64,000 nucleotides of DNA from Proteinivorax hydrogeniformans (lineage in GTDB: Bacteria; Bacillota; Proteinivoracia; Proteinivoracales; Proteinivoracaceae): positions 1,860,001 through 1,924,000 of the forward strand of contig NZ_CP159485.1 of assembly GCF_040515995.1 (NCBI RefSeq), read 5' to 3'. The notes under the pieces are model-generated. The model saw only the letters and a list, made by a program, of their open reading frames with translations. It did not search any database and had not been told where the DNA came from. Below are positions 12,537 through 61,332 of the stretch, piece after piece (positions within the stretch are counted from its first letter, which is position 1; each line of letters opens with the position of its first letter). A program made the translations under genes and the position numbers.

Positions 12537-12572
12537 ATAATACCAAAATGTTTTGACAGCATTATGTCATTA
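12537..12572 (-). promoter_or_regulatory. Promoter with shared palindrome (third, weaker copy)
   Basis: On the minus strand, TAATGACA-N6-TGTCAAAA (12551-12572) is followed after 8 nt (CATTTTGG) by TATTAT (12537-12542) as -10. The right half-site and the spacing are identical to the promoters at 17404-17440 and 36386-36422; the left half-site matches at 6 of 8 positions. Confidence 0.6.
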
Positions 12573-16834: not shown

Positions 16835-17200
16835 CTATCTTAATACAACCAAAATCAAGTTTGTCAAAACAGTTATATAGCCTATTCCCCCTAACAAACC
16901 CGTTATCAATCTGCGGCTGTTGGTTGACTTTTTTAGTTTAGTTGCTTGAGTTAGCCAGTCTATAAACATTACAGCTAAAAAGACTATACCCCAGGTAATT
17001 GACCCTATATACCTAAAAAAAATCATCGCAAGAACAGCCATAGCCTGCCCTAATAATACACCTGAGCAGCGGGCACAAACTGGTAATTGGTAGTTATTGA
17101 TAAAAAAGCTGCGGCTGGCCTTTTGGTGACACCCAACTGCGTGCCCAAGTTTCATAAATTTTACCCAACTTTTATTTGAATTTTGTACCACAACTTCCAC
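16835..17200 (-). CDS. DUF2085 membrane protein
   Basis: About 121 residues with the DUF2085 signature: LGHAVGCHQ…RSFF near the N-terminus, LPVCARCSGVLLG (CxxC pair) at about 40-52, a FIDWLTQ segment and STNSRRLITGLLGG near the C-terminus, with three predicted membrane spans. The family's function is not known; the conserved Cys and His residues suggest a metal or cofactor site at the membrane. The start is a GTG at 17200 or 17191, inside the 3' end of the zinc-ribbon gene; an ATG at 17155 would leave out family residues. The overlap indicates co-transcription with the zinc-ribbon gene and thus control by the palindromic promoter at 17404-17440. Confidence 0.8.
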   Translation of the reverse strand: MEVVVQNSNKSWVKFMKLGHAVGCHQKASRSFFINNYQLPVCARCSGVLLGQAMAVLAMIFFRYIGSITWGIVFLAVMFIDWLTQATKLKKSTNSRRLITGLLGGIGYITVLTNLILVVLR

Positions 17201-17403: not shown

Positions 17404-17440
17404 ATTATACAACATTCTTTTGACAGGGGCATGTCAAAAG
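17404..17440 (-). promoter_or_regulatory. Promoter with TTTTGACA-N6-TGTCAAAA palindrome
   Basis: On the minus strand CTTTTGACA-N6-TGTCAAAAG (perfect 9-bp arms, 17417-17440) is followed by TATAAT at 17404-17409, exactly 8 nt after TGTCAAAA. There is no good -35 at 17 bp; the palindrome covers that position. It matches the BREX promoter in arms, spacer length and distance to -10. Confidence 0.75.
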
Positions 17441-19267: not shown

Positions 19268-19291
19268 AGATAACAGCTCCCTTCTTCTCCC

Positions 19292-21433
19292 CTAACCATA
19301 AACCTTCAACACTTCCACCTCAGCATCTCGAATAAAGTCAGCTGCTTTGTTCAAGTCATATACATAGTCAGCTATCATTTTCTTCCTTAAGTCTTCCGGT
19401 AGATACTTTTGATATTTTGATAAAGATATATCCGGAACCCGATCAATTAGCTTGTCCTTTATACTATCAAGATAATTTTGGTTTTCTTTTATTCCATTAA
19501 TAACTTCTAATAACTCCTCACTTGTTGGTTTAAAGTCTTTATCCTCAGCTGCTACTTTAAAACCTTTCCATGAGATACTCTTAGTCGCTACCATTTCATT
19601 TATAAGGCTAAACGCTATCGCTAGAGTGTAGTTTACTTTATTTCCCGAGTAAGTATAAAATGCATATCCTTCTTTTATTTCTTCTATAATAATTTTCCCC
19701 ACCTTAAGACCAAACGCCCTCTGTTCATATCTTACATCTTTTAATATTGCTTTTTCGTTATTATTTAAAAAACCATATTCCTCATCTTCTGTCATTACTT
19801 TGAGTATTTCTTGAGATAGTTCATATGTATAGAAGCCCTCTCCACTTAACCAACGAGGAGGTTTTGCTTCCTTTGCTTCTACAACATGTATTATAGATTT
19901 TATATAATCTATTTTATCAGTTTGCCAGTACTTTCCTGCCAGTACAAATTGAAAGTCTTCTCCTAATGCATTTACAAACCATCTTTCAAGGGTTCCTATG
20001 GGTTTGGTTCTATACTTTACCGTAAACTCTTTTGTGGTTTCAAAAGCAGAGTAAAGAGTCATATAGTTCTGCCTTCCAAATTCTTTCTCAGATTTACTAT
20101 CCAGGTAAATATTATTTCTATCTACTTGTATATAGTTTTGCTTTTCCATAAAATTAACAAGATTATCATACTCTTCCTTTGTAATATTAGAATAGGAATA
20201 AACTTCCTTCAAAACATCAAAAACTTCTTCTTTTCTGACTCCAAATCCAGCAAGCGACATTGTCAGTACTTGGTGAAATAAAATATCGTAGGACACCCTG
20301 CTTACATATACATTCTCAACCCATTTTTTCATTGCTAGTTTTAAAACTGCTACAGCCAAGACAAGTTTGTCCTTTTTAGTGGGAAAGAACACAAAATGCG
20401 CAATACTACCTTTTCTTCTACCTGTCCTCCCTAACCTTTGTAAAAATGAAGAAACAGTATTAGGAGAGTCTAGCTGCAAGACCACATCTAAATTACCTAT
20501 ATCTATTCCCAGCTCCAACGTACTGGTTGCAATAATGCATGTGTTACTACCAAGCTTAAATCGCTCTTCAGCTATTTCCCTAAATCTTTTATCAATAGAA
20601 GAATGATGTACAAAAGTGTCTATCCCACTTTCTTCTACTTGATTCTTTATATTCTCAGCAGCACTCCTGCTATTTGAAAAAAACAGCGCCTTCTTACCAA
20701 AAATCCTTTTACAAACTTCCTTGCCAAAATCCTCTCCCTTGTCAACAACCTTTATTTCTATCCTCTTTTTGCCTTGAGTCTTCGGTGGATCTACTGTTGT
20801 CAGTTTTCTTTTACTACTTCCCTGCATCCACCTTCCAATTTTATCAGGGTTCCCTACTGTTGCTGAGAGTCCTATCCGTTGAATATCATGATCAGAATAT
20901 TTTTGAATTCTCTCTAGAACCGACATTAAATGAACTCCTCTTTCACTCCCCGCAAAAGAATGTACCTCATCAATCACCATAAACCTAATATTTTTAAAAA
21001 ACTCATCATTGTTAATTCGCTTGTTCATTAACATAACTTCTAATGATTCTGGAGTTATCATCAATATATTAGGAGGGTTTTTAAACGATTTGATTTTTTC
21101 ATATGAAGATACATCACCATGCCACTTAAAAACATTTCCATATACAAAAGAAGAAAGCCCCCTCAGTCTTTCTTCTTGATTATTTAGCAACGCCTTAATC
21201 GGCGATACATAGATTACAGATGTGCTTGTGATCTCTTCATTATAGATAGTATGCAATATAGGAAAAAAGGCAGCTTCTGTTTTGCCCCCAGCTGTTGGAG
21301 CTAAAACTATAGCATTTTTTCCGTTAATTATTTCTGGTATTGTCATTTCTTGTACTGCCGTTAATTCTTTCCACCCAAGCTTGTTGATAATTTTATCCTT
21401 TAACGGCTGGCAAAGCATATGAAAATTTGACAT
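19292..21433 (-). CDS. brxHI: BREX Lhr-like DEAD/DEAH helicase (BrxHI)
   Basis: A 713-residue superfamily 2 helicase of the Lhr type. Motif I is APTAGGKT (45-52), motif II DEVH (155-158), motif III SATVGNP, and motif VI QRLGRTGRRKG. The C-terminal 330 residues are a family-specific extension. It lies 34 bp downstream of brxD and 24 bp upstream of the OLD nuclease gene. Lhr-like helicases with BrxD, PglZ and BrxC are characteristic of BREX types 2 and 6, which is why I name it BrxHI rather than a housekeeping Lhr. Confidence 0.88.
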   Translation of the reverse strand: MSNFHMLCQPLKDKIINKLGWKELTAVQEMTIPEIINGKNAIVLAPTAGGKTEAAFFPILHTIYNEEITSTSVIYVSPIKALLNNQEERLRGLSSFVYGNVFKWHGDVSSYEKIKSFKNPPNILMITPESLEVMLMNKRINNDEFFKNIRFMVIDEVHSFAGSERGVHLMSVLERIQKYSDHDIQRIGLSATVGNPDKIGRWMQGSSKRKLTTVDPPKTQGKKRIEIKVVDKGEDFGKEVCKRIFGKKALFFSNSRSAAENIKNQVEESGIDTFVHHSSIDKRFREIAEERFKLGSNTCIIATSTLELGIDIGNLDVVLQLDSPNTVSSFLQRLGRTGRRKGSIAHFVFFPTKKDKLVLAVAVLKLAMKKWVENVYVSRVSYDILFHQVLTMSLAGFGVRKEEVFDVLKEVYSYSNITKEEYDNLVNFMEKQNYIQVDRNNIYLDSKSEKEFGRQNYMTLYSAFETTKEFTVKYRTKPIGTLERWFVNALGEDFQFVLAGKYWQTDKIDYIKSIIHVVEAKEAKPPRWLSGEGFYTYELSQEILKVMTEDEEYGFLNNNEKAILKDVRYEQRAFGLKVGKIIIEEIKEGYAFYTYSGNKVNYTLAIAFSLINEMVATKSISWKGFKVAAEDKDFKPTSEELLEVINGIKENQNYLDSIKDKLIDRVPDISLSKYQKYLPEDLRKKMIADYVYDLNKAADFIRDAEVEVLKVYG

Positions 21434-21467
21434 AAAATCACCTACAATAACATGATATCAACCTTTG

Positions 21468-22748
21468 CTAAAAATTCACAATATGTGCTGTGCTTTTCTC
21501 TGTATCTTCCACCATGTTCCTTACCTCGTCGTCAAATACGAATTTTTCCTCAGGTACATAGTCCTCATACATTTCACTTTTATCCAGTATGTCCACCAGC
21601 TTTCTTAAAAAACTTCTAGGACTTATGTTGATTTCACCACCAAATCCCTGGGACATATCGGTAATGAACCTCTCTAAAAATTCATTACTAACTTTTTCTT
21701 CCGCCGACCAACTGTTAACCTGCCCGTGAATATCCCTAACTTTTTTTGCAACCTCACGTAATTTCTCCCTATTAAAACCGTCTAAAAACATTACAGGTTG
21801 TCTTAAATTCTTAAATTCATTATCTCTTTTAACATCCAGCCGCTGGTCTAAAGGATCTAATGCTTTAAATCCTTTTTCACTCTCCATAAGATCGGTGGTC
21901 CCTGTATAAAGGAAAAAACAGTTATTAAAATTACCTTTGTCAGTTTCATCTATAAACAACCTTAAGTTTTCATAAGCATTATTTCTCATGTTAGCTGTTT
22001 GCAATTTTTGTACAGTTTCAACTTCATCTAAGATTACCACTATCCCCTGATAACCAGCAGATTTTATCATGTGTAGCAGCGCTCTAAAAAATTCAAACGA
22101 GTTCGCTCTACTTACATTTCCTACTACACTAAGCTGTCTTTTAATATCTGCACTTACTTTTTCTCCTTTTAACCATGCTATCGCTCCCTGTGCTAATTTG
22201 GAATCCCCCGCGTATTTAGCCTTATAAAAGGATCTAATAGCATTGGCAAAAGAGTTAGCAATAGAGCCAACAACCTGTAATTCATCATCAATTCTTTTTC
22301 CTATTTCTTGTTGAAATTTTTCTTGATCCTCATCTGGATCTAAGTCAGCTATTTCAATAATTTTTTCTTCTATATTAGATAACCATTCTTCTAATAGTAG
22401 AGAAAAAGCTGGAATCTCTTTATTTGATCCTATTCTCATTCCACCCATTATCTTACTGTATAACTCTTCAAACTTATGAAGGGGTGCCTCTTGTGAAATA
22501 ACAACAGAAGATACTACAAACTGCCTTTGAAACGCCTTCTCCCTTACGCTACTACTAAAAAAGGTTTTACCAGACCCATAATCACCAATGATAAATTTAA
22601 AAGATCCGCCCCCCTCTTCTACCTTATTTAACTGGTTAGAAATTTCATTTAACTCATCGTCTATTCCTACAGCTATCTTATCAGTCCCTTCCGAAGGAAC
22701 CGTTCCATTTCTTAAAGAATCAATTATTGCAACTAGTGAGTTTCCCAT
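21468..22748 (-). CDS. brxD: BREX ATPase BrxD
   Basis: A 426-residue P-loop ATPase (DUF2791 type). Walker A is FIIGDYGSGKTFF (GDYGSGKT at 55-62), Walker B VVILDEVETVQ, followed by the arginine-containing YENLRLFIDETDKG segment. The stop codon region of pglZ abuts its start (1-bp overlap), so the genes are coupled. BrxD is a marker of BREX types 2 and 6; its role in the complex is probably ATP-driven remodelling with the BrxHI helicase, but is not established from sequence. Confidence 0.88.
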   Translation of the reverse strand: MGNSLVAIIDSLRNGTVPSEGTDKIAVGIDDELNEISNQLNKVEEGGGSFKFIIGDYGSGKTFFSSSVREKAFQRQFVVSSVVISQEAPLHKFEELYSKIMGGMRIGSNKEIPAFSLLLEEWLSNIEEKIIEIADLDPDEDQEKFQQEIGKRIDDELQVVGSIANSFANAIRSFYKAKYAGDSKLAQGAIAWLKGEKVSADIKRQLSVVGNVSRANSFEFFRALLHMIKSAGYQGIVVILDEVETVQKLQTANMRNNAYENLRLFIDETDKGNFNNCFFLYTGTTDLMESEKGFKALDPLDQRLDVKRDNEFKNLRQPVMFLDGFNREKLREVAKKVRDIHGQVNSWSAEEKVSNEFLERFITDMSQGFGGEINISPRSFLRKLVDILDKSEMYEDYVPEEKFVFDDEVRNMVEDTEKSTAHIVNF

Positions 22749-25219
22749 TATATCTCCTCCCTTAAACCACTTTCCTTAAATTTATACATAATAACATCTC
22801 CCACTGATTGAACCTCAATAATATCCAGCTTATCTTTTTTCAATTTCTTTACTAACCTCTTAATCTTTGAATCCAAAAGTCCCGCTGATCCCAATTCATT
22901 GACAAGTTTTTGCTCAATATCTGATGTGGAAACAAAGCTGTTTTTCAATGAATATAGTGTTTCTAATATAATCTTTTCTTTTTTTGTTGGTCTGAAACTG
23001 ATATCTAGTCTTAGCCCATTCTTTAGCACCACTGAATCAGTTTTTTTAATCTGAGGTATAGCTGGTTTTGGGCTTTTTGATCTAGCTACTATTAACGGCA
23101 CTATAACTTCTTCAATGCTAGCTCCCCCATGGCTATAAAAATGTTTTTCGCCACCGCCCTTAAAATATCCCTTATTGTCATAAGTCAATAAAAGTTTTTC
23201 TCCACAATCCAAATTATCACCATCGGTTAGTTCTATGCAATTCCCTAAGCTAACACCTTGCTCTGCCCTCAAATATCTATACTTACATTCTTTTATCCCG
23301 TCTACTTCTCTTAAGCTCTCATACTGATCTACCCTCATTAACCCATGATCAGAAGCTACCACTATGTCATCTTCATCTGGTATCTGATTAAGTAGGTTAC
23401 TAATGGTACCTTCAAAAACTTTTCTCTGCTTATCATAAAAGAGATAAAAATCTTCGGTAGCTTTATGTCCGTCTTTATCAAACATGTTGAATACAAATAT
23501 ATTGTATTTTTTATCCTTTAATATGACTTCTTGTATTTCTTTTTGATTTTTAACACTTTCTGATTTCGTCAAAAAAGCAACTTCTTCTCTATGCTGATTT
23601 ATAATTGATGAATAAATAGCATCTCTTGAAATTGAAGTTATCGACGGCAGTAATGAAAAAGAGTTGCCAACTTCGATATTTCTGTTTTTAAATGCTTTCT
23701 CAAAATAGGGCCTTACTATGTAATGCCAAGCATCATACCTCATGCCATCAAAAACCAAAACAAAAATCTTTCCGTCCTCTTTTTTAATAATATCCCCGAT
23801 ATCATTATTTAAGATAGGCCTAGAACTGCCCACTTGCCCCTGGTTCCACTTGGGATAATTCTTTTCTAAAAACTTAGCAAAAACAGCCCTATAACTGTTT
23901 AATACTTTATTAACCCTAACACTAATCTTTTGATACCTGCTTTTATCTATAAGGGCGTGATTATCTAACTGCCATATTTCTGATAAACGATACTGCATAT
24001 CAAAAAGTGTTGTTTTATACAAAGTTTGCCATTTTCTATAATCCTCTTCCTCAATTACCTGTTCAATACCCGTTTCAGCTTTACTAATCTTATCCAGTAA
24101 ACTTAAAATTTTATTGAATAAGCTAAGCAAATTGTTTATGTTAGTAGATCTATACTGTACTGTTTCCTCTAATAAATTTTTTAGCTCCAACAAGTCACTA
24201 TTTTTATATTTATAGACCCTTTTAGCTCCTTCTAAGTTATATCCAGCTAATAAGTCCTTCATGGCTTTCAAAATTGTTATAAAATTGACGTTGCCTTCCC
24301 GGATTTCCACATGAGGATTGTTAATATTGGAAAATTCTATCCCGGAATTTGAAACAATCTTTTCTGCCCAATCTATTTTTTTATAGAAGTAACTTTGATT
24401 TTTTTTACCGATAAGATCAGCAAGCTCAATAAGTTTGCCAAGATCCGGCACTAGCTCATTATTGTATTCACTTTTTAAAACTAACTGCAAGTTAATTTTA
24501 TTAAGCCTTCCATACCTCTGCAACACCTTTGAAATCCACACTACTTTTTCTAATTGATCAAAGGTATCTTTTTTTATAACATCCACAGTAACACTGCCAT
24601 ACTCTCTAAAAAGATTAACAATCAATCCTTTTAGATTACTATTAGCTTTTATATTGTCGGGACTTTGATATAAATCTATTAAAGCTTTATAAAATAGAAA
24701 ACAATCCCCTTCATCTGCTACATTGGTGCCATCGACCCCAGTCAAAGCCGATACTAATATTTTCAATATATCTTTTTTACTTAGCTGACTTTTCTTTAAA
24801 CGCTTACTATAATCAATAATGTCACTAAAATTTCTTTGTATATCTTCTTTATCAAACTCATTAATGTATTCATTCCAGTTAAGTCCTGGTTCCACTTGGT
24901 TCATTACATCTTGTATGGTAATACTATGGACCTTTTTATTTTCTGAACGTCTAACAAAATCTAAAACTTTTTTATGGTTTTCTTGCCCTTTAAATAATAA
25001 GATATAGTTCCTATCATTTTTATGCTTAATGTGTTCATACTTAGCTCTGAATACCACATTATTTTCCATAGGAATAATGCTATGAGGATACAGATGCAAA
25101 TCTATATCCTCATAGCCCTCAAAAAGCCCGCACTCATCCTGTATACAAAGGAGGTGGCTTTCTAAATTATTAAGTCGTTCAAGATATTTTTGTAAACTAT
25201 GCTTAAATATTCCACTCAT
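22748..25219 (-). CDS. pglZ: BREX alkaline-phosphatase-domain protein PglZ
   Basis: An 823-residue PglZ. The core phosphatase fold shows FVLVFDGMRYDAW near residue 495, a SITSISRDAIYSS segment at the nucleophile position, ASDHGLMRV near 623 and SHGGASIEEVIVP near 696, together forming the metal site. The N-terminal 480 residues and the C-terminal winged-helix-like 90 residues are family extensions. It lies 8 bp downstream of brxC and overlaps brxD. PglZ is the defining protein of all BREX systems, so this call fixes the identity of the locus. Confidence 0.93.
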   Translation of the reverse strand: MSGIFKHSLQKYLERLNNLESHLLCIQDECGLFEGYEDIDLHLYPHSIIPMENNVVFRAKYEHIKHKNDRNYILLFKGQENHKKVLDFVRRSENKKVHSITIQDVMNQVEPGLNWNEYINEFDKEDIQRNFSDIIDYSKRLKKSQLSKKDILKILVSALTGVDGTNVADEGDCFLFYKALIDLYQSPDNIKANSNLKGLIVNLFREYGSVTVDVIKKDTFDQLEKVVWISKVLQRYGRLNKINLQLVLKSEYNNELVPDLGKLIELADLIGKKNQSYFYKKIDWAEKIVSNSGIEFSNINNPHVEIREGNVNFITILKAMKDLLAGYNLEGAKRVYKYKNSDLLELKNLLEETVQYRSTNINNLLSLFNKILSLLDKISKAETGIEQVIEEEDYRKWQTLYKTTLFDMQYRLSEIWQLDNHALIDKSRYQKISVRVNKVLNSYRAVFAKFLEKNYPKWNQGQVGSSRPILNNDIGDIIKKEDGKIFVLVFDGMRYDAWHYIVRPYFEKAFKNRNIEVGNSFSLLPSITSISRDAIYSSIINQHREEVAFLTKSESVKNQKEIQEVILKDKKYNIFVFNMFDKDGHKATEDFYLFYDKQRKVFEGTISNLLNQIPDEDDIVVASDHGLMRVDQYESLREVDGIKECKYRYLRAEQGVSLGNCIELTDGDNLDCGEKLLLTYDNKGYFKGGGEKHFYSHGGASIEEVIVPLIVARSKSPKPAIPQIKKTDSVVLKNGLRLDISFRPTKKEKIILETLYSLKNSFVSTSDIEQKLVNELGSAGLLDSKIKRLVKKLKKDKLDIIEVQSVGDVIMYKFKESGLREEI

Positions 25220-25227
25220 ATAATCAC

Positions 25228-28200
25228 CTAGTTTTCATTTTTTAAATCTGTAAACTTAATATAGTGATTTTGGCTTACCTCACCATTGCCCTCCAGCAGT
25301 CTAGTGAATTTCTCAATCATTTCGCGCTTAGAATACGGCTTATCTTTAAATACTTCAACCAATTTGCTAATATCCCTAGGAATGATATTTATATCAACTT
25401 GTAAAGCTTTATCAATAAAGGGAATGACCTCGGCATTACTCATTAAAAAATCTCTATACTTTTCAACTCGATTATTATTTAGCTCAATTTCATACATATT
25501 CTCGACTTTCTCAACCACATACTGCTGTTCACCAATCTCCCTTAAACTATTTATATACTTATTTACTTTGTCCTTGTTAGCTTTAGAGTTTAGTTCATCT
25601 ATATATCCTTGGATTGCTTTGTTAACTGCAGGTTCAAAATAGCCCTTGCCTCTGATCTCATTTTTCTGTCCTAACTTAAAATTACATAAACAACAAACTT
25701 CACCATCATTAAACCTGTTAATAGGTGTTTCTTTACACTCAAACCTCAATTGTCTATTAATATCTTCTTCAATGTTAATATAATCATAATCCATGTTGAT
25801 TTTTGTTATACTGCTTAGGCTGGATAAGAATCGATAGTTATCACTAATCTTTAAATCTTTAAGTTCTTCAAACTCAATTTGATTATTCTGCTCACTATGT
25901 TCTTCAATATATTTTGACTTGTACTTTTCCTCAAACAGCCTAAATTTCTCGTTTATATTAGTTACACTATTACCCCAAATTAACTGATCTCCGTTTTTCA
26001 TTAGTTCTTTTATTTCATCAGTCAACTGAAATAAATCCTGGTATTGCGGTTTTTGGTATATATGCTTTTTATAGTCTTCAATTTTTCTATCTATAGATAT
26101 AATATCAGTTAATATATCTGACTCTACCCAATCCATAAACTGGATACATTTATCATAGTTTTCTTTTACAACGCCATTTAATATGTCCTTTTTATTTTGG
26201 TCTACAAAATACTCTAAGCCATCTTTAGAACCATTACTTTCTTCAATAGTTTCTAAAATATCCTGCATGTATTCCACTAGTCTATAAGTTTGTTCAAAAT
26301 CTTCTTTTTTTAGCCCCAATTCATCTCTTTTTGCTAACAAAATATTTATACTTTCAGTCAGCCTATTTGCTAGTCCTTGCTTATACTCTAATAGCTCTTC
26401 CCAAAACTCTTCTTGAAAAGCCAAATCCTGCTTTTCATACCTTTTATCAAAAAATAATTTGGCTATTCTCATTAACCCCTCATAATAAACATCATCCACA
26501 AACTCCCCCATTTTAAACTTGCTTATAGAACTGCTTAAAGGAGCTTTAATTTCGGAAAGATTAATGGGCTCATCATACTTTAAAGGAATTAAAAACCCTT
26601 TTTTAATCAGCATAGCCATTAGAATCTCTGTAGTGGATTTATCTGGCCCATATTCAGACTTCCTAATTTTTTTGTACAATTCCCCGTATGATATTCCTTC
26701 AACTCTGTCTTCCAATTCTTTAACAACCATTTTTACAAATTGATTATTATTAAAATCAACACTAAATTTAAATGCTTTCTCTTGTTCTTTGACACTACCA
26801 AACTTTTTCACTACATTCTCAACTATACCTTTTTCCAAGCCTGTAAGTTCAACTTTATCTCCAAAGATAAACTCATTTATAAACCTGTTAGTAGAGTTAT
26901 CAGTTAGTCCTAAAAATTCATTTGGCGCTATGAATTGGTTTTTATCAAATACTTGGCTCAAAACCTTATCTAAAACTAGTTTTACAATTCTATTTAAAGA
27001 TTCATTTCCATAAGAAGAAATATCAACATCCAACTTACCTTCTACATTATAGAAGGTACCGCCTAGATATAAACCTTTTAGGACCTCAAAAACTTCATCT
27101 TCTAGATTAAGTTTTTTCTCACCCACCTTATCTAGCATTTCTTTGGCCTCTTTTGAATGGGTCTCTTTATACTGTTTATCTAACTCTTTATAAAGCTCAG
27201 TATACGCATGAAATTCTCTTAATTTATCTTTTCTCTTTTGCTCCTCTTCCCTATCTAACTCATCAGAAGGCAACCAGTAAATAATGGACTTCAACAGCCT
27301 TTTCTCAGTTTCTTTACTTTCTTCTTTCTGAGCAAATAATGATACCTTTTGATTACCACTGTTCAAAGCATTTAACCCTTGGTCTATAAATTCTTTTTGC
27401 TTTTTTTGATCAAAAATAGTCCCTATATAAAGATAGTAGTCAGTTTCTTTATCTTTTAGTCCTCGTAAAGCTGCAGAGAGGTTTTCCTTTGAAGCTATTT
27501 TATTTAACTCATTAAATTGGATAACACCATCTCTGTTCGTATGGTTCCACCTTACTCTCTGACCATAAGGCTCATCAAACATCTGACTAATTGGTATCGG
27601 ATCTTGGTTTAACGTTTTTACAATTTCCGGGACAATAGAAACTATTTTACTACCATCTACATTGGTCATCAGAGGTTTAATTTTTTGCTTAATTTTGTTA
27701 GAGATACTAACATCTTTGTTTACATAATAAACGTTACTCCCAACATCAGCATCACTATTTTCTTCGCCTATCTCAATATACTCACCTTCATCGTACATTT
27801 TCTTTAAAATCTTATTCACTTTAGCTTCTGCAAACTCTTTTTCTAATTTAGGATACTGTATCATATAAGTTAAATCTTTTACCGTATAATTTTTTTCTAA
27901 CTCATTAATTTTTAACAAAGTCAGCAAGTCTATTAACTTAGCTGCCATTTTTCTATCATCATCATTATCCTTAAATAGATCCTTAACCTTACCATTACCA
28001 AGTCCTTCAGGCCCCATATAATAAGAATATATAGAGTCAAAGTATTCTCTCTTATCGCTTAACTCTCTAATTCTTTCCTGGAAATGGCTAAAGATCTTAT
28101 CAGGCGTAACCATCTGTAGATAGTTCTCATCCATAATTCCCTGAGATCTGCCACCGTCGTCGGCGTTACCTTTAACCTCACTTAAAACAAAATCAACTAT

Positions 28201-29358
28201 CGAGCGCTGTCTTGACAAAAACCTTACCGACTTTGACAAAATTTCTAACGTCTCAGGATGTAATGGATATATTTTCTTAAAGGTTTCTTTTTCCACTTGT
28301 TCAAAGGCGTTATATTTGTTTGATAAAAGGTGAAACGCCTCCTCAACTTTATCTGGTCTAGTTTTTATAACTAATCTTTGGTCAATAATTTCTTCTACAT
28401 CGTCGATTTTAAGAAAGAAGTGGTTTTCTGTAGGAAACCTATCTTTCATAAGATCGGTTACATTGGGAACCGTTATATCTTCAAGTGCAGAAAGAAAGGA
28501 CCCCACTATCCAAGCAGGTATAACTCTTCCGTTACGTTCAGTAGAGGAGTTCTCCAAAAATGTTTTTAAAAATAACGCATCGTCTCTTGCATTGCCGCCT
28601 CGATCCATAAGGTACTCTGACAGCTCATCAATCAGCACAAGGATTCCGTCATATTCTTCTTCTGCTAGCCATTTATATAGATAGTCTAATTTATCTTTAC
28701 GGCCCCTGTCTGGATTGAAAAATGTTATTTCTTCTGCTTCTATAAAAGCTTGTATTAGCTTAGTTATAGAACGGTCATCATTCATACTTTGTTTAAAATC
28801 AGCCCAAGTTTTAAATTTATTGTCAGTATAACTACTGACAAACTCATCTACTTTATGCTTGTAATTGACATTTGCCATAATAGCTTCTTCAAACTTTATA
28901 ATAAAATAACTATTATCTGTAAAAGGAAAACCAGTAATCTTTTCAGCGGCTGAAAAAAACATTTGCTCTAGCGAAACTCCTGGTCCACCTTCTTCCGCCA
29001 TCAAAGAAACAACAAATACTTTTTTATCCATAAAATGTGTTTTTGCTTTTTGTAGGGTGTCATTGTCTGTTTTTAACAAATCAAAAGCAGCATTACTCTT
29101 TACTAGAGCACCTAGAACCGTCATAAAGTGTGACTTACCAGCACCAGGAAGGCCAGAAATTAAAAAACCCTGCCCTTTATCTTGAAAATTAGTCACTTTG
29201 TAAAAAAAATTATCCAGATTTTTCTCCACGCTACCTGTCATAACATAACCTTTCAATAAACTTTCAAGCTTATCTTTATCAGCTGTATCCGCCATATTAT
29301 CTGTAAGCCTTACAATTTTATCTATATGAGGAACTTCAACTATATCCCTTACTTTCAT
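25228..29358 (-). CDS. brxC: BREX large ATPase BrxC/PglY
   Basis: A 1376-residue P-loop ATPase. Walker A is SGLPGAGKSHF near residue 72 and Walker B GILVLIDELSEYLMD near 239. The C-terminal half is rich in predicted coiled coil, with a short CCLC segment near residue 1225. The start is set at ATG 29358, five bases after GGGAGGGG; the frame extends to a TTG at 29373 inside the ribosome site. BrxC is present in all BREX types and is the largest subunit. It lies between the BrxF-like and PglZ genes. Confidence 0.92.
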   Translation of the reverse strand: MKVRDIVEVPHIDKIVRLTDNMADTADKDKLESLLKGYVMTGSVEKNLDNFFYKVTNFQDKGQGFLISGLPGAGKSHFMTVLGALVKSNAAFDLLKTDNDTLQKAKTHFMDKKVFVVSLMAEEGGPGVSLEQMFFSAAEKITGFPFTDNSYFIIKFEEAIMANVNYKHKVDEFVSSYTDNKFKTWADFKQSMNDDRSITKLIQAFIEAEEITFFNPDRGRKDKLDYLYKWLAEEEYDGILVLIDELSEYLMDRGGNARDDALFLKTFLENSSTERNGRVIPAWIVGSFLSALEDITVPNVTDLMKDRFPTENHFFLKIDDVEEIIDQRLVIKTRPDKVEEAFHLLSNKYNAFEQVEKETFKKIYPLHPETLEILSKSVRFLSRQRSIVDFVLSEVKGNADDGGRSQGIMDENYLQMVTPDKIFSHFQERIRELSDKREYFDSIYSYYMGPEGLGNGKVKDLFKDNDDDRKMAAKLIDLLTLLKINELEKNYTVKDLTYMIQYPKLEKEFAEAKVNKILKKMYDEGEYIEIGEENSDADVGSNVYYVNKDVSISNKIKQKIKPLMTNVDGSKIVSIVPEIVKTLNQDPIPISQMFDEPYGQRVRWNHTNRDGVIQFNELNKIASKENLSAALRGLKDKETDYYLYIGTIFDQKKQKEFIDQGLNALNSGNQKVSLFAQKEESKETEKRLLKSIIYWLPSDELDREEEQKRKDKLREFHAYTELYKELDKQYKETHSKEAKEMLDKVGEKKLNLEDEVFEVLKGLYLGGTFYNVEGKLDVDISSYGNESLNRIVKLVLDKVLSQVFDKNQFIAPNEFLGLTDNSTNRFINEFIFGDKVELTGLEKGIVENVVKKFGSVKEQEKAFKFSVDFNNNQFVKMVVKELEDRVEGISYGELYKKIRKSEYGPDKSTTEILMAMLIKKGFLIPLKYDEPINLSEIKAPLSSSISKFKMGEFVDDVYYEGLMRIAKLFFDKRYEKQDLAFQEEFWEELLEYKQGLANRLTESINILLAKRDELGLKKEDFEQTYRLVEYMQDILETIEESNGSKDGLEYFVDQNKKDILNGVVKENYDKCIQFMDWVESDILTDIISIDRKIEDYKKHIYQKPQYQDLFQLTDEIKELMKNGDQLIWGNSVTNINEKFRLFEEKYKSKYIEEHSEQNNQIEFEELKDLKISDNYRFLSSLSSITKINMDYDYINIEEDINRQLRFECKETPINRFNDGEVCCLCNFKLGQKNEIRGKGYFEPAVNKAIQGYIDELNSKANKDKVNKYINSLREIGEQQYVVEKVENMYEIELNNNRVEKYRDFLMSNAEVIPFIDKALQVDINIIPRDISKLVEVFKDKPYSKREMIEKFTRLLEGNGEVSQNHYIKFTDLKNEN

Positions 29359-29380
29359 CTTATCCCCTCCCAAAAAATTA

Positions 29381-29827
29381 CTATAATTTTATCTTTTTAT
29401 AAGCCCTTAGTGGCAAGCCTTTTTCATACTCTGTTGGTACAACTACTAATGCCTTCTTTTCACTTAACGTCACCTTATCCAGTATCTTAATCCAACCAAT
29501 ATAATCCTCTGATAACAAAAACTCCATATGATCAAATACTATTAAGTTTTTATTTTTATATTCTCTCTCAACTAAACCGCTAAAGATTTCTTCTGCATCA
29601 GCTCTAAACTCTTCAGAAAACCTCTCATACAATCTTAATTTTTCATCTGCTATCTTTTGTTGTACATACATCCCCACATCTATGTAGTGGTTTTTTGCGT
29701 TAGCACCATAAACTTCGGTTAAGTATTTTTTGACCAATGGTGTTTTGCCACTACCGTGGTCTCCTAAAATAAAAAGCATTTTACGGTGTCCCATACTATC
29801 TAGAGCTTTTTTAATTTTATCCGTCAT
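29381..29827 (-). CDS. brxF: BrxF-like small P-loop protein
   Basis: A 148-residue protein with Walker A ILGDHGSGKTPLVKK at the N-terminus and a Walker B-like strand NLIVFDHMEFLL, followed by ALVVVPTEYEKGLPLRAY. Size and order of motifs fit BrxF, the small ATPase of BREX type 3. The start ATG 29827 lies inside the last codons of the BrxA-like gene after AAGGTGG; the frame is open to 29857 without a ribosome site. Finding BrxF with BrxD and BrxHI is unusual. An alternative is a distinct small ATPase filling the BrxB position. Confidence 0.68.
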   Translation of the reverse strand: MTDKIKKALDSMGHRKMLFILGDHGSGKTPLVKKYLTEVYGANAKNHYIDVGMYVQQKIADEKLRLYERFSEEFRADAEEIFSGLVEREYKNKNLIVFDHMEFLLSEDYIGWIKILDKVTLSEKKALVVVPTEYEKGLPLRAYKKIKL

Positions 29828-30596
29828 CTTCAACCACCTTCTTGCACAGACTTTCAAGACTATCTAATGCAAACTGGTATTTTGCATTGCCCCCCATATC
29901 GTACCGTTCTATAAATCCTTTTTCTGTCATCCATTTTATATATCGCTTTTTGACTAAATCATTAACTAGAAAATACTTAAAAGTATCACAACCTAGCACT
30001 TTTTCTACATCAGGCATTTTATTACCCTTTATATGCAAAAATTCGTAGCAAATACTAAATAGTATCCCCTGATAAGATGGCCTGACATTTTCGTTTAAAT
30101 AAAAAATCTTCATATTCTTATCCCGGTCTTTTTTACACCTAACTATGCCAAAATCTTGGAGCACTGTATTAACTACAGAGAAGGTTTTCTTATAAGAACT
30201 TTCTTTAGCTTTAGGCATAGCTTCCTTAAATACACTTAATAGCCTCTCATCGTCTATTTCTGCAGGTATATCTCCCTTATAAAATCCCTTTACTACCTCT
30301 CCTACAGCGTCGGAGGTGGTGCATACAATAAAGTAGAGAATCTCTTTTTTGGTTTGATAGCTCTCAACACCATTTATATATTGGAGTAATGGGGAATAAA
30401 TCACTGTGTCCCCATCTAACTTCAAAAAACGCTGAATTAACTTGTTTCTATATTTTGCCGTAGCTTTGTCCCCAAAAGGCATAATTTCATCAATGTATCT
30501 TTTAACTTTTTCTATATCTCTTTCCCACTTTACATACTCCATTGTTTTTATCGTTTCTTCTATTGGTATCCTCTCGGATAGCGAGCTTATCTGCAT
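29817..30596 (-). CDS. brxA: BrxA-like (DUF1819) protein
   Basis: A 259-residue helical protein. The pattern of an N-terminal helix bundle with KYRNKLIQRFLKLDG, then a middle helix set ILYFIVCTTSDAVGEVV, and SSYKKTFSVVNTVLQDFGIV near residue 150 resembles the DUF1819/BrxA family, a DNA-binding NusB-like fold. Position upstream of the small ATPase and BrxC also fits. A strong AAGGGGTGA precedes ATG 30596. The assignment is by pattern and context, not by a diagnostic motif. Confidence 0.62.
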   Translation of the reverse strand: MQISSLSERIPIEETIKTMEYVKWERDIEKVKRYIDEIMPFGDKATAKYRNKLIQRFLKLDGDTVIYSPLLQYINGVESYQTKKEILYFIVCTTSDAVGEVVKGFYKGDIPAEIDDERLLSVFKEAMPKAKESSYKKTFSVVNTVLQDFGIVRCKKDRDKNMKIFYLNENVRPSYQGILFSICYEFLHIKGNKMPDVEKVLGCDTFKYFLVNDLVKKRYIKWMTEKGFIERYDMGGNAKYQFALDSLESLCKKVVEDDG

Positions 30597-30607
30597 GATT
30601 TCACCCC

Positions 30608-32398
30608 TTAGTTAAAAGTCCTCTCTATTTTTTCTTCCATAAGCTCAATATAATCTTGCTTATCTTCTATGTCTAGGTCTTTGAACAGCTTCAATAAATC
30701 CTTAGCCTTTTTTTCGTTGGGGTTTGACTCGGTGTATTTTTTAAATGCGTCTAGAAAGTACTTTTTGTGGATTTCGTCCGACCATTCCGCTAAGCCGTAA
30801 TATTGGTTGTCATAGTATTTGATAAATGTTTTGTTTACTTTCCCTTTTTGCTTTGCCTTTCTGTAGGCGTTCCAGGTATATGCCTCAGAGTTTAAAGCTT
30901 TACTTGCAATTTCAACTCCTCTAATTTTATCATCAATAGTACGACATGTAGTAATAATATCCTCAAAATTATTTAACTTGTTTTCAAGTATATGCTTGAT
31001 ATCCCCCAAACTAATGTATTCAGAGTTTTTAACCATAAGGTAAAATACCGTATCATTAACTTTACAATTGATTGACTCAAAAAGTTTAGATGGTTCGTAA
31101 TATTTAACCTTTTCATCAGGCTCCAGCTGTTCGGTATACATTCTTCTCAGTAATGCAACTGTTTCATATTCAAACCCATATTGATTAGCAATTTTTTCTA
31201 TACTTTTCCCTTTAGATACGTGCTCCTCTTTAAATTTTTCTCTAGATAATTGTATCGAGAGTTTTTCTACATAAGACATTCTTACTTCATGGTCTAAAGT
31301 TATAAGCATGTTACTACTATCAAACTCTTTCTTGTAGCCTAGTTCTAAAGATTCTAGCATTTTAATATATTCTTCTTTATTTATTTTATATAATTGACAA
31401 ACAAGCTTATCGATCCTTTCTGCATAAATATTCACATTGTCAATTTTTTCATGATATTTTATTAAATTTTCTAGGGATATATTAAACTTATCAAAAGTAT
31501 TAATACTTTTGATTTTTTCTATATAACCATTTATTTCCTTTATTATTGTATCATTACCATTTTTGATAATTGGGAATTCTTTTAGAAATATTTTTTTATA
31601 ACGAATGCCATTTGTATTTAACGTAGAACCAATTAATTTTATATAAAACATTGAAATTGTTGAATTCAGAATAGCTAGTAATAGTTTATAATTATCGTAA
31701 TTATTTATCATAAATCCAGTAGCTTCTATATAATATTCTTGTTCATCGTAATAGAACTTAGGTCTGTTAGGAGTAGTATTTATTATTTCCGCAAATAAAA
31801 TTTTAGGAGCTTCTAATTCTTCATAGATATTGGAAGATCTGAGATTATACCATTCCTTACCCTGATCGGATCTACTCATTAATCTTTCTTTGTAGGGCAA
31901 TAAATACTCATATATGTCTGGGTATTTGTTTTTAATATCCAAATCATATTTTGTGTTAATCAAATATTTATTTTTATAATCTAACATATACCTCCCAATA
32001 TCTTTCCCTCTCAAAACTGGCTTAATGATTTCTCTATTTCTTATATTTTTTTCAAGCAAAAGATTTTTCTGTCTTTCATTAATTATAAAAGCATCATTAA
32101 GTCCTGTTTTAATGCCCCAAGTAATTTTCAGTCCTTTTAACTGCTTAATCTTTATACCAGCATTTTCAACCTTATTTTTTATTTCAAGTATTTGATTATC
32201 ATTGAAAACCCAGCTGCTACTCCCGAAAAGGTTTTGATCCAAATGTATACTGTTATTATAAAGGACTTGAGTTGGTTGCATCTTTCTATATTGTTGTTTT
32301 TCTAAAATAATTATACAAGCATCGACTGTCGCATCATCAAATACTTGGTTTAGACTTAAATGTTTAAAATTATCTACATAGCGTTTCATAGCCCTATG
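30608..32398 (-). pseudogene. pglX: pglX, 3' part (target-recognition half), cut off by IS
   Basis: The C-terminal half of PglX. It opens with RYVDNFKHLSLNQVFDDATV…CIIILEK, the segment that normally follows the methyltransferase core, then a TaqI-C-like specificity region (GLNDAFIINERQ, LRGKDIGRY, FYDEQEYYIEATGFM) and a helical tail. An internal ATG at 32389 could allow separate translation (593 residues), but no ribosome site is convincing. The IS lies directly upstream. Joined without the IS, both halves are in the same frame and give about 1115 codons. Without the N-terminal half it has no catalytic motifs. Confidence 0.85.
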
Positions 32399-32472
32399 TG
32401 TTAGGATAGTTGTCGTATAAGAAAATTAATGCAATAATGAAGTTACGACACTAAACCTAAGGAGATAAAATT

Positions 32473-32973
32473 ATGTCAAAATCTAAAAGTAAGCACTACT
32501 CTAAAGAGTTTATTGAGTCCGTATTAAAAAGACTTGAGCCCCCTTCAAATGACACCGTTACTGCTATTGCAGCAGAGCTGGGCATTCCCAAAACAACCAT
32601 TTATACATGGGTGAAAAGAAACAATAAAACTCTATCATCTCGCAAACCTCAAAATAGGTGGAACTCAGAAGATAAATTCCAAATAGTATTAGAAACAGCA
32701 GCTTTAAGTGAAGCTGAGCTAGCCGATTACTGCCGACGTAAAGGTATATACCTTGAAGATATAAAGCGTTGGAAAGAGCAATGTTTAAAGGCAAACCAAG
32801 GTGAAACACAGGACTACCAAAAGACTAAAAGTGAGTTAAAGGAAGAAAAGGAAAAAGCAAAAGAATTAAAAAAGCAGCTTAGACAAAAAGAGAAGGCACT
32901 GGCAGAAACGGCTGCATTACTAGTATTAAGAAAAAAAGCAGACGCGATTTGGGGGGACCCCGAGGAAGACTGA
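32473..32973 (+). CDS. IS3-type transposase OrfA (HTH)
   Basis: A 166-residue protein with a helix-turn-helix near the N-terminus (AIAAELGIPKTTIYTWVKR, 33-51), a second HTH-like part (LSEAELADYCRRKGIYLEDIKRW), and a C-terminal Lys/Glu-rich coiled coil. It binds the element's ends. AAGGAG lies about 8 bp before ATG 32473. Its last 25 bp overlap OrfB in the -1 frame. Confidence 0.87.
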   Translation: MSKSKSKHYSKEFIESVLKRLEPPSNDTVTAIAAELGIPKTTIYTWVKRNNKTLSSRKPQNRWNSEDKFQIVLETAALSEAELADYCRRKGIYLEDIKRWKEQCLKANQGETQDYQKTKSELKEEKEKAKELKKQLRQKEKALAETAALLVLRKKADAIWGDPEED

Positions 32974-34034
32974 TCAGTAGCTCAGATCGCGTAAAAGCAG
33001 TAGAACTGATCGATGAAGCAAGAATAAATGGTGCAAGGTTAGCCCCTGCATGTGAAGTATTAAGTATCAGCGTGCGTACCTATCAAAGATGGACTAAGGA
33101 AAAAGGGAAGATCAAAGAAGATAAAAGACCTTCAGCTAAACGCCCCACTCCTAAAAACAAGCTAACAGATGAAGAACGCCAAGAAATAATAAAAACAGCA
33201 AATAATCCTAAGTATGTCGACTTACCTCCATCACAAATAGTTCCTAAGCTGGCAGACGAAGGCAAATATTTGGCATCTGAATCAACAATTTACAGGGTTT
33301 TAAAAGAAGAAAAAATGGATGCTCACCGAGGAAGGGCCAAAAAACCCACAAAAAGGGAGCCTCCTACTCATGTAGCTACTTCCCCTAATAAAATATGGAC
33401 TTGGGATATAACATGGCTAAACTCTGCTGTTAAAGGTAGTTTCTATAAGTTATACCTTATAATAGATATGTTTAGCAGATTAATTGTAGCCTATGAAGTA
33501 TGGGAGTCAGAGAAAGCAGAATATGCTGAAAGACTTATTAAAAAAGCAACATTGTCTCAAAAGATTTCAGGTCGACCTTTAGTACTACACTCCGATAATG
33601 GCAGCCCAATGAAAGCAGCAACATTTCAGGCCACACTTGAAAAACTAGGTATTCAAAGCTCTTTTTCCCGTCCAAGAGTTAGTAATGACAACCCTTACTC
33701 CGAATCGCTCTTTAAGACCATGAAGTATCGCCCAGCATACCCTTATAAAGGTTTTAAAAGCATAGAGGAAGCAAGAAATTGGGTTAAAGAATTTGTTAGA
33801 TGGTATAACTATGAACACTTACATAGTGGCTTAAAATTTGTTACACCTTACCAAAGACACTATGGAATTGATGTTAATATAGTAGAAAAAAGAATCAGGA
33901 TCTATGAGCATGCAAGGAAAAAGCACCCAGAGAGGTGGTCTAAAAATATCAGAGATTGGTCATTACCCGAATATGTTTCTCTAAACCCTATAAAAGACAT
34001 ACAGTTTAAAAATACTATAGATCATGTAGATTAG
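32949..34034 (+). CDS. IS3-type transposase OrfB (DDE integrase)
   Basis: A DDE-family integrase of up to 361 residues. The catalytic acids are in WTWDITWL, VLHSDNGSP and NPYSESLFKTMKY. The N-terminal 90 residues form an HTH_21-like region. There is no ATG; the frame opens at a TTG inside the end of orfA, next to a run of six G (32951-32956). This points to expression as an OrfAB fusion by -1 frameshifting at the G run. It looks intact, so the element may still be active. Confidence 0.88.
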   Translation: MGGPRGRLISSSDRVKAVELIDEARINGARLAPACEVLSISVRTYQRWTKEKGKIKEDKRPSAKRPTPKNKLTDEERQEIIKTANNPKYVDLPPSQIVPKLADEGKYLASESTIYRVLKEEKMDAHRGRAKKPTKREPPTHVATSPNKIWTWDITWLNSAVKGSFYKLYLIIDMFSRLIVAYEVWESEKAEYAERLIKKATLSQKISGRPLVLHSDNGSPMKAATFQATLEKLGIQSSFSRPRVSNDNPYSESLFKTMKYRPAYPYKGFKSIEEARNWVKEFVRWYNYEHLHSGLKFVTPYQRHYGIDVNIVEKRIRIYEHARKKHPERWSKNIRDWSLPEYVSLNPIKDIQFKNTIDHVD

Positions 34035-34097
34035 CTTTACAATCTAACAAGGTAATTCGTAAAACTTTTTAATTTTAATGCGACAACTTTCTTGACA

Positions 34098-35654
34098 AAC
34101 ACCGATAGTAAATTTATTAGATAGGAAGCTACGCAATTCTTTTCCATAATTTGTTCGTGTAAATTTATTAGAAGTAATAAACCCTAGTTTGCCATTTCTA
34201 TTAAGCATCGCCATTCCTCGTTCAAAAAAATAAGTATATATATCCGAAATATTATTAAAAACATCGTAATTTTTACTCAAATAAGTTTTATTTTTTATTT
34301 TCTCATGCCTAATATAAGGAGGGTTCCCAAGCACGTATTCAAATGTTGTGTTAAAGAAACTACATAGTTTTACGACCTCTTTTGCTTTTTCCTTTGTGAT
34401 TACTTCTACTTTGCCTGACTGATGCTTTAAATTAACTTTCTGTTTTTTTTGTGTTACTTTCCTTTTTTCTTCTTCTCCTAGCCAGTTTACTTGCCTAACT
34501 GTTACGGTTTCATGCTTTTTTTGAAGCTCTTTTTTTAATTCATCTAAATCATATTCCTCTTCCCATCTTATTAAACTATCTGCTTCAATTATATTCAACT
34601 CATCAGTAAAGTTATCTAGATCTTTAAGTAATAAATTTATAGTTGCTAGCTGTACCGCAAAACTATCTATATCCGCACCATAAATACAATTCTTAAGAAG
34701 ATGATAATGGATATTTTTTTCTTGCCAGTATTGCTTCCCAGTTATTTCTTGATCTTTACCATTCTTTTTTATTGTATATATTTCATTAGCATATTTAACT
34801 TGTAAGCTTGCAAGATTATCTTTAAATTTTCTTCTTAAAATATCATAAGCCATTGTTAAAAAATGGCCAGATCCACAAGCAATGTCAGCGACTGTAACAA
34901 ACGGATTTTCCAGCACATCCGCTTCTGCTACTGTATTATTTAAGATATATTCGATAACAAATTCTGGTGTATAAAACTGTCCTACTGCTTTACGGGTTTC
35001 CCTGTCCATGAATTTTTCATAAACATCACCAAGAATATTACTATCTATCACTTTGAAATTCCGGTCTTTGCCTAGTTTCTTAATAACAATATCTAATACA
35101 TCATCAAATTTTTTAATAAGTTTCACATTTCTTTTATCGACTTCCAGATCAACATAGTAAAGATCAAACTCTTCCTCTGTGGGGTTTAAGGCATCATATT
35201 TTTCTTGTTTATAAAGTGATATATTATTGTAAGATTTTTTCATGTCCGCAAAAGCAAAATTGACTAATTCTCCAAAAGTCGATTTTGTTATTAGAGTTTT
35301 CCACTTTTCCAATCCTTTTTTAGACAGCTTTTGTCCTGCATGCTCATTTTCTAGCTCACCTACCACATAATCCTCTTCTCTTGTCATGAAGCCTTTATCT
35401 TCGCAAATTCTTATAAATAAAATTTTGTTAAGCAGGGTATATGCTGCACGGTGACAATAATTTTTATTCCAAGCTTCTCTATCTTTTTTGGCTATACCTT
35501 CATCTGTGTACTGGCTTTCGATAAAGTCTATAAATTCTTGATCAGTTGAAAACTTATATTCAAATATTTCGTCATAAACATTTACTAGCTGCTTATGCAA
35601 CTGCTTAAGCTCTTGTATTAGTTTGTCTTTATCTATTTTGATATTGTTTTCCAT
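34098..35654 (-). pseudogene. pglX: pglX, 5' part (methyltransferase half), cut off by IS
   Basis: The N-terminal half (519 codons) of the BREX adenine methyltransferase PglX. It contains the GQFYTPEFVIEYIL segment, SAM motif I ADIACGSGHFL near residue 260, and the catalytic NPPY (VLGNPPYIRHEK) near 444. It runs into the IS after KFTIGV, and translation would add 19 IS-encoded residues before a stop at 34044. The target-recognition half is separated by 1.7 kb, so host methylation is probably lost unless the IS leaves or the halves work together. Confidence 0.87.
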
Positions 35655-35665
35655 AGTAGCACCTC

Positions 35666-36268
35666 CTAAGCCAAACCTAACTGATTCATAAGCTCTGTAG
35701 TAACTTTAGATTCTTCGATAAAATCTTTGATATCTCTCCTACTATCAATCGGATATATTCTTTCAAATAAGGCTATCGCAGTATCAGGATCAAGTGTTGC
35801 AAAATCATACTTTTTTAGTTTTTCTATTGGATTATCCTGGTTTGTGATAAAAAATCCGATTTTTAGCTTTTCCACATACTTGTCAAAAGTATTGCCTGTA
35901 TATAGATTCCGAGTAGATTCTGCCCTGCGGAGATCTTTACAAGCTAACCTATATAACTCATAATAGTCCTCTCGATAGTTTCTACTAAGCTCTCCCCAAA
36001 GTTCTATAGCCTCAATATTAAACTTAGGTGAAATTAGGTCACTAGCTTCAGATGCTAATCTTATATGAATGTACTGGCAAGTTAAATGAATCGCTGTTTT
36101 CGTTACTAAATAACTTTTAAACCTTTCAGCGCTAATTTTACCTTCATAACCTTTCCTAGCCTCTGTTAATTCCGAGGTGCCGATACTTCTATTTAAAACC
36201 TCTTCAGCCTTTTCCTTAAATTGAACCATATCCTCGATAAATTGCGACTTATTTCGACTAATTCCCAC
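35666..36268 (-). CDS. Unrecognised first protein of the BREX operon, 200 residues
   Basis: A soluble, mostly helical protein with many charged residues and an RNYREDYYELYRLACKDLRRAES segment in the middle. It starts with GTG 36268, eight bases after GGGAGG, and ends 12 bp before pglX. Its place as first gene, ahead of the methyltransferase, matches no BREX gene I recognise; the size is near that of BrxE from type 6, but I see no sequence basis for that name. It could be a PglX partner or an operon-specific accessory. Confidence 0.7.
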   Translation of the reverse strand: MGISRNKSQFIEDMVQFKEKAEEVLNRSIGTSELTEARKGYEGKISAERFKSYLVTKTAIHLTCQYIHIRLASEASDLISPKFNIEAIELWGELSRNYREDYYELYRLACKDLRRAESTRNLYTGNTFDKYVEKLKIGFFITNQDNPIEKLKKYDFATLDPDTAIALFERIYPIDSRRDIKDFIEESKVTTELMNQLGLA

Positions 36269-36382: not shown

Positions 36383-36438
36383 AATAATATACCACTTTCT
36401 TTTGACACCATCATGTCAAAAGAAAGTGGTATATTATT
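36383..36438 (-). promoter_or_regulatory. BREX operon promoter within a perfect 25-bp inverted repeat
   Basis: Two perfect 25-bp arms (36383-36407 and 36414-36438) surround CCATCA. The core is CTTTTGACA-N6-TGTCAAAAG, followed on the minus strand after 8 nt by TATATT (36386-36391) as -10, giving a leader of about 110 nt. The same core and spacing occur at 17404-17440. The whole repeat could also form a hairpin that ends the HEPN-CBS transcript (stop 36568). Confidence 0.72.
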
Positions 36439-36567: not shown

Positions 36568-37314
36568 TCAATATCTAAAACAAATTCCATCATACCCCGC
36601 AACATCCCAGGGGGTTATAAGACCCAAGATCTTTTCTTCCTTCTTGCCGTTTTCAGTTATAAATATAACTGAAATACGCTTATCATCTTTAAGTCCTTGC
36701 TTAAACATTTCCTCAATGTCCATTACAAGGGTGCTTTTGGGAACAAATTCAAAGTATTCGCTTTTATGTTTTTCTATAGGAAGAAAATCAGCAAACTCTT
36801 CTATTGTGTTGTCTTGATCTGTTTCCAGTATGCGGTGTTCAACAAGATATGAAAATACTGTGTTTTCACTAAATATACCTAGTAGCTTATCATCCTCGTC
36901 AACTACTGGTACATGAGTAAATGTATGTTTATGCATTTTTTCCATGATTTCGAGTGCATTGTCTTTGAGAGTGGCAGTAAAGATGTTTGTGTAGCTTACG
37001 GCAATTTTTTCTAAAGCTTTAGGGGGATTTATTATCGTTTGGGCTATAGCGTAATAGTTCTTTACAGTAATATCATGAGGCTCTGCTATTGGTTTCACAC
37101 CTTCTTTAGACTCATGTACTATAGCATTTCTTAGCTTTGCGTAATCTTTTAATTCTTCGTAGTATGAGTTCACTATAGTATATCTTTGTTTCATTTCTTC
37201 AAGTAACTTGGTATGTCCCTTATAGTCGCCCGCGTTTAACCTTTGACGCATAAATTTGTCTAGCTCATTATACACATCCAAAAATTTATCTGCATTTGAT
37301 AACTGTTTCGCCAC
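36568..37314 (-). CDS. HEPN-like domain + paired CBS domains protein
   Basis: A 248-residue protein. The N-terminal 90 residues are helical and end in KLRNAIVHES, an R-x4-H motif (Arg62, His67) as in HEPN ribonuclease domains. Two CBS domains follow (about 95-150, with HTFTHVPVVDEDDKLLGIFSE, and 185-245, with FITENGKKEEKILGLITPWDV), which usually bind adenine nucleotides. The fusion suggests an RNase gated by a nucleotide, or a non-catalytic HEPN scaffold. It lies directly upstream of the BREX promoter, on the same strand. A defence role is inferred from position only. Confidence 0.68.
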   Translation of the reverse strand: MAKQLSNADKFLDVYNELDKFMRQRLNAGDYKGHTKLLEEMKQRYTIVNSYYEELKDYAKLRNAIVHESKEGVKPIAEPHDITVKNYYAIAQTIINPPKALEKIAVSYTNIFTATLKDNALEIMEKMHKHTFTHVPVVDEDDKLLGIFSENTVFSYLVEHRILETDQDNTIEEFADFLPIEKHKSEYFEFVPKSTLVMDIEEMFKQGLKDDKRISVIFITENGKKEEKILGLITPWDVAGYDGICFRY

Positions 37315-61270: not shown

Positions 61271-61332
61271 TTGTTCACCTCCCCTACTGATAATTATGCC
61301 TGTTGCTTCTAGTTACGTTTAGCTAATAACGC

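Follow-up and report, generated by a model that had tools for sequence, protein, structure and literature searches.

We describe a putative operator, TGACA-N6-TGTCA, held at a fixed distance upstream of a -10 box, through which a WYL activator probably runs a regulon of several defence systems by sigma adaptation. The predicted operator, its fixed promoter geometry and the list of its targets can be read from the DNA itself; we infer that the sites are bound by the WYL protein of the source genome, which would act as an activator and not as a repressor and would respond to single-stranded DNA (ssDNA). The WYL regulators so far known to control defence act locally, as repressors. The rule TGACA-N6-TGTCA, 8 to 9 nt, -10 names a regulon, predicts its regulator and mechanism, links CRISPR-associated WYL proteins to an operator within one phylum, and offers a route to new defence genes through their promoters. 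With it, one can also test whether bacterial immunity and DNA repair answer to one common ssDNA signal.

Results

Each of three sites in the window (the whole stretch of 64 kb that was analysed) reads, in gene direction, TGACA-N6-TGTCAAAA, 8 nt, -10 box. The sites and the genes behind them are as follows.

36383-36438, minus strand: operator-promoter of BREX, an inverted repeat with the core TTTTGACA-N6-TGTCAAAA
36386-36391, minus strand: -10 box TATATT of the BREX site, 8 nt after TGTCAAAA, preceded by TGG (extended -10)
17498-36268, minus strand: BREX operon
17417-17440, minus strand: operator of the zinc-ribbon/DUF2085 pair, CTTTTGACA-TGCCCC-TGTCAAAAG
17404-17409, minus strand: -10 box TATAAT of the zinc-ribbon site, 8 nt after TGTCAAAA
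17172-17369, minus strand: zinc-ribbon protein gene, LITAF-like (sub-threshold), start re-set to the ATG at 17369
16835-17200, minus strand: DUF2085 membrane protein gene
12551-12572, minus strand: operator of the gene for a 92-aa membrane protein, TAATGACATAATGCTGTCAAAA, with two mismatches
12537-12542, minus strand: -10 box TATTAT of this site, 8 nt after TGTCAAAA, preceded by TGG
12225-12503, minus strand: gene for the 92-aa predicted membrane protein

Coordinates, hexamers and the 8-nt spacing agree with a preliminary description of this DNA, which had also stated that a good -35 box is missing and that the palindrome covers its place; indeed, none lies at 16 to 18 bp, where the N6 between the half-sites is found. 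Exact 22-mers occur on the minus strand of the window at 17418-17439 and 36400-36421. At 36383-36438, perfect 25-bp arms enclose a 6-nt centre and 52 of the 56 positions are symmetric, and the BREX site is therefore a mirror-symmetric promoter, with its -10 box mirrored on the plus strand within the repeat. The mirrored box faces the 3′ end of a CBS/DUF6548 gene (36568-37314), and so this promoter could also fire in the plus direction, antisense to that gene.

The BREX operon comprises a 200-aa gene, PglX (two ORFs), a 259-aa gene, BrxF-like and BrxC-like genes, PglZ, BrxD, an Lhr-type helicase and an AAA_15/OLD-like ATPase. The two ORFs of the PglX methyltransferase gene (34044-35654 and 30608-32389) have an element inserted between them, a transposase-like pair at 32473-34034 on the plus strand; terminal repeats were not found. 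As PglX is split in this way, BREX may be inactive or altered. About 58 nt past the end of BREX lies the zinc-ribbon/DUF2085 pair. The zinc-ribbon ORF as listed starts too early; ATGGGATGCCCG starts at 17369, behind the -10 box and a GGAGG-type ribosome site, leaving a leader of about 28 nt. A search for a family match of the 92-aa membrane protein gave none. A role in defence for the pair or for the 92-codon gene is a guess, and we treat them as regulon members only. Elsewhere in the window, at 59969-62667, two near-identical genes for ABC-type membrane proteins stand in tandem (59969-61270 and 61333-62667).

Within the window, four matches with at most 3 mismatches compare with 1.16 in shuffled sequences. 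Such mild enrichment in the window by itself cannot prove significance, and therefore the whole source genome, a single contig of 2.83 Mb, was searched by pattern. Exact TTTTGACA-N6-TGTCAAAA occurs 3 times (0.0036 expected from base composition) and TGACA-N6-TGTCA 8 times, compared to 3 for the reversed control. In each of the eight core palindromes, on one strand or on both, a -10-like TRNNNT follows TGTCANNN at a distance of exactly 8 nt (chance about 1e-8), namely TANNNT in seven and TGTAAT in the eighth. A ninth site, with one mismatch, precedes a type I restriction-modification (R-M) operon. Sites lie in front of the following genes.

Genome 1000711, plus strand: complete type I-C CRISPR-Cas operon
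Genome 655998, plus strand: complete type I-E CRISPR-Cas operon
Genome 1896386, minus strand: BREX
Genome 1877404, minus strand: zinc ribbon/DUF2085
Genome 279995, plus strand: type I R-M operon (HsdS-like, HsdM, HsdS and HsdR-like, the last assigned by eye)
Genome 278916/278933, site on the plus strand before the gene: AbiJ_NTD4/PDC-S32 (AbiJ-like) gene
Genome 275646, minus strand: 225-aa membrane protein
Genome 1801409, minus strand: 180-aa lipoprotein
Genome 1872537, minus strand: 92-aa membrane protein

The CRISPR system at 1.0 Mb is of type I-C, not I-B, according to its Cas8c and Cas3c matches. The genome-wide search that the preliminary description had proposed thus returned few sites, mostly before defence genes (CRISPR-Cas I-C and I-E, BREX, type I R-M, AbiJ-like). 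Since they are few and located in promoters, the pattern is not one that recurs hundreds of times at random places, and the suggestion of a dimeric regulator over BREX and other loci is well supported by this defence-dominated list. On the opposite side of the 275646 site an MkoC-like helicase (Mokosh type II) begins. Two features of the target list count against the model proposed below: the best -10 box at 278916 faces away from the AbiJ-like gene, and three targets have no assignable function. The AbiJ-like gene stands between sites 278916 and 279995, which repeat one sequence in inverted orientation (GGATGGGGTGTAATTAT); in this region (L040, genome 278900-280030) both operator-promoter copies share an extra arm (CACCCCATC/GATGGGGTG) and are directed outwards. 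With 2 mismatches allowed, one-sided TGTCAAAA-N8-TATAAT could not be told from its control (68+81 matches versus 65+67), and this search was uninformative. The -10 box at 155690 was rejected as a regulon promoter; it has an ordinary -35/-10 arrangement and precedes a tRNA-like sequence.

The geometry was examined in 398 genomes of the same phylum by searching for the palindrome only (TGACANACNGTTGTCA, no -10 box required), which gave 33 matches compared to 3 for the reversed control. Among the 32 palindromes readable with full flanks, 27 have TANNNT 8 or 9 nt downstream, that is, at offset 11 (n = 13) or 12 (n = 14) after TGTCA; every other offset has 0 to 6 sites, with a mean of about 3%. The palindrome is therefore locked to a promoter. 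When the motif was searched together with the -10 box, 44 places were found among the matches listed, in 26 of the 398 genomes, versus 3 in the control. The offset-12 sites form a sister class with the -10 box one base further on, mostly beside WYL genes whose neighbours are GyrI-like, DinB-like or zinc-ribbon genes (L190-L193, L197, L198, L205, L212, L216); some WYL genes of this class have one site ahead and another directly behind. Offsets 11 and 12 coincide with a division into two WYL clades only in part.

In distant genomes of the phylum, the motif stands directly 5′ of HTH-WYL regulator genes or their operons, and many sites precede HTH-WYL-WCX genes and CRISPR-Cas operons of types I-B, I-C, I-D and I-G (inner cas gene names were assigned by eye). 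Homologues of the WYL protein in G103, G065, G017, G063 and G101 have TGACA-N6-TGTCA, 8 nt and TANNNT ahead of their gene or operon, with one base of the palindrome changed in G101, and the 6-bp spacing recurs upstream of four other WYL loci, from named Clostridia. In G031 the order is WYL gene, site, cas3-cas5-cas8c-cas7-cas4-cas1-cas2 (I-C), and in G322 it is site, WYL, csc3, csc2, csc1, cas3, cas4, cas1, cas2, cas6. G287 has a site before WYL and a second between cas2 and the csc3 operon, and sites precede cas8b in G068 and cas6 in G192. Both G103 and G065 have sites before WYL-cas6, cas3g and related small membrane proteins, and G103 has a further one before SspB. Four sites surround WYL and AbiEi/AbiEii genes in G342; in G101 the WYL gene adjoins HsdM/HsdS, and a second site lies near an McrC-like gene. 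Judged by sequence, then, the predicted operator is coupled to WYL genes in other genomes. In three genomes (L068, L067, L077), this palindrome precedes a shared set of genes that encode a VanZ-like membrane protein, a WYL regulator and a DUF4352-like lipoprotein.

The WYL protein is absent at E 1e-8 from G001, which belongs to the same genus, and the I-E promoter there is conserved with that of G000 except for a core base of the half-site, which reads TGCC for TGTC. As one case, this coincidence is only suggestive of a link between protein and site. About 7 kb upstream of that promoter, G001 has a duplicate I-E cas promoter (L111, 2559008) with TGTC intact and 9-nt spacing.

The candidate regulator is the only WYL protein of the source genome according to both the WYL and the WCX models.

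Genome 2151754-2152713, minus strand: WYL protein, 320 aa, HTH_11-WYL-WCX

Pfam identifies HTH_11 (1.4e-8), WYL (2.4e-15) and WCX (2.8e-16). The protein matches the PADLOC models of CRISPR-associated WYL proteins PDLC01457 (8e-40) and PDLC01652 (1e-36), as well as the N-terminal (WYL) part of a WYL-Cas3c fusion model (4e-30). In the profile search, PafBC is nearest (7e-50), then PafC, with DriD at 1.5e-25; matches to BrxR/CapW are much weaker, at about 1e-9 to 1e-6. A fold search with the predicted structure ranked DriD and PafBC before BrxR/CapW; the model has a mean pLDDT of 76 and a pTM of 0.39, and its domain placement is therefore unreliable. Unlike the genes of BrxR and CapW, which adjoin the systems they control, the gene is about 255 kb away from BREX and more than 1.1 Mb from both cas operons, is unlinked to every regulon target, and a palindrome site of its own was not found; neither was one near its best homologue, in G028. 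A tree contains a well-supported clade of CRISPR-linked (I-D, cas6) and VanZ/R-M-linked WYL proteins. The source protein is poorly placed in the tree, nearest to the G028 homologue and to the I-C-linked WYL protein of G031. Genome contigs searched with the WYL protein alone yielded no relatives.

Discussion

In our model, the palindrome would be the operator of a homodimeric HTH-WYL-WCX factor, most likely the sole WYL protein, with two GAC/GTC half-sites flanking the place where a -35 hexamer is expected. At promoters that have a -10 box and lack a -35 box, this factor would activate the housekeeping RNA polymerase by replacing the contacts of sigma domain 4, that is, by sigma adaptation as in PafBC and DriD. 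The trigger is probably ssDNA or a similar nucleic-acid signal that arises in phage attack or DNA damage and is bound by the WYL domains. The regulon would unite the unlinked BREX, CRISPR-Cas I-C and I-E, type I R-M and AbiJ-like genes, with the zinc-ribbon/DUF2085 pair, two small membrane proteins and a lipoprotein as further members. We lean, by a little, to the broader view that an orphan WYL protein of the CRISPR family is a master immune regulator that senses ssDNA and reprograms the housekeeping RNA polymerase to turn on several unrelated, unlinked defences together (BREX, two CRISPR-Cas, type I R-M, Abi), which newcomers join by gaining a short mirror-image promoter.

The activator-like geometry, together with the order of profile and fold matches, leads us to favour activation by sigma adaptation. 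The same protein could instead repress from the same sites and release them on a phage signal, and precedents are at hand: the WYL proteins known to control BREX and CBASS repress from promoter palindromes, and Sll7009 regulates a I-D CRISPR system negatively. We nevertheless consider repression unlikely. A roadblock needs no set distance to the -10 box, whereas here this distance is fixed at one or two values in the genome and across the phylum; moreover, the sites lack a usable -35 box, and PafBC and DriD are much closer relatives of the WYL protein than BrxR and CapW are. It is more doubtful still that the sites are read by some other dimeric regulator or by an unusual sigma factor. The source WYL gene, lacking a site and any linkage to the targets, would fit such a reader, but operators of equal spacing repeatedly precede WYL genes and WYL-cas operons elsewhere. 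The sigma factor, an alternative raised in the preliminary description, would not need a palindrome; a WYL activator that acts together with the housekeeping sigma factor is more likely.

Very little speaks for taking TTGACA of the left half-site as an ordinary -35 box with an overlong spacer, possibly realigned in the MerR manner, and the palindromes as incidental. TTGACA does fit the consensus in 4 of 9 sites, but this reading requires a spacer of 22 bp, the first T is variable elsewhere and the conserved part is TGACA, and the right half-site would be left unexplained; the alignment largely refutes an overlong sigma-A spacer or MerR-type site. It is hardly credible at all that the sites are hairpin terminators, or palindromes that stand before a few genes by chance. 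The repeat at BREX is long, and in G002 several TGACA-N6-TGTCA matches resemble intergenic hairpins, but as a general explanation this is refuted by the -10 register, by the controls (33 matches versus 3 in the 398 genomes) and by the defence-dominated target list. The palindrome was also compared with the Spo0A box, TGTCGAA; this reading was rejected, as Spo0A boxes come without an inverted repeat of such spacing.

WYL proteins have been predicted as regulators of CRISPR and other defences (Makarova 2014, PMC4012209), and the source protein fits the model of the CRISPR-associated members; Sll7009 differs in being described as a negative regulator. In the full-text literature, with subscription journals and preprints mostly outside its coverage, we found no such operator or register and no WYL regulon that unites unlinked BREX, CRISPR-Cas and R-M. 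BrxR and CapW, WYL repressors of defence operons (PMC9122601, PMC9122588), also act as dimers on palindromes controlling BREX or CBASS. However, they are distant kin and local repressors encoded beside their targets, and their palindromes overlap or follow the -10 box. SiwR of Mycobacterium smegmatis is a WYL activator with a palindrome 5′ of the -10 box and an essential -26 region, but is known for adjacent DinB-like genes and a genotoxic/oxidative stress response.

The closest parallels are PafBC and DriD. PafBC, which acts at the RecA-NDp promoters of mycobacteria, belongs to the HTH-WYL-WCX family and is the nearest solved relative of the source protein. Its promoters read tTGTCRgtg-8 nt-TannnT (PMC5656591), a TGTC-N4-N8-TANNNT register equal to TGTCAAAA-N8-TATAAT, and need no -35 box; after binding ssDNA it sits on the -26 motif between sigma domain 4 and the DNA (PMC11804915), the mode of sigma adaptation. 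PafBC is, however, a heterodimer on a non-palindromic site that controls DNA repair, whereas the sites described here are palindromic, as expected for a homodimer, and their targets are immune systems. In DriD of Caulobacter, a homodimeric WYL activator, the halves of ATACGAC-N7-GTCGTAT lie around the -35 region at a constant distance from the -10 box (PMC12340889). This GAC...GTC palindrome is of the kind proposed here, but has GAC-N7-GTC with ATAC/GTAT flanks in place of GAC-N8-GTC, and its regulon is a DNA-damage response and not a set of defence systems.
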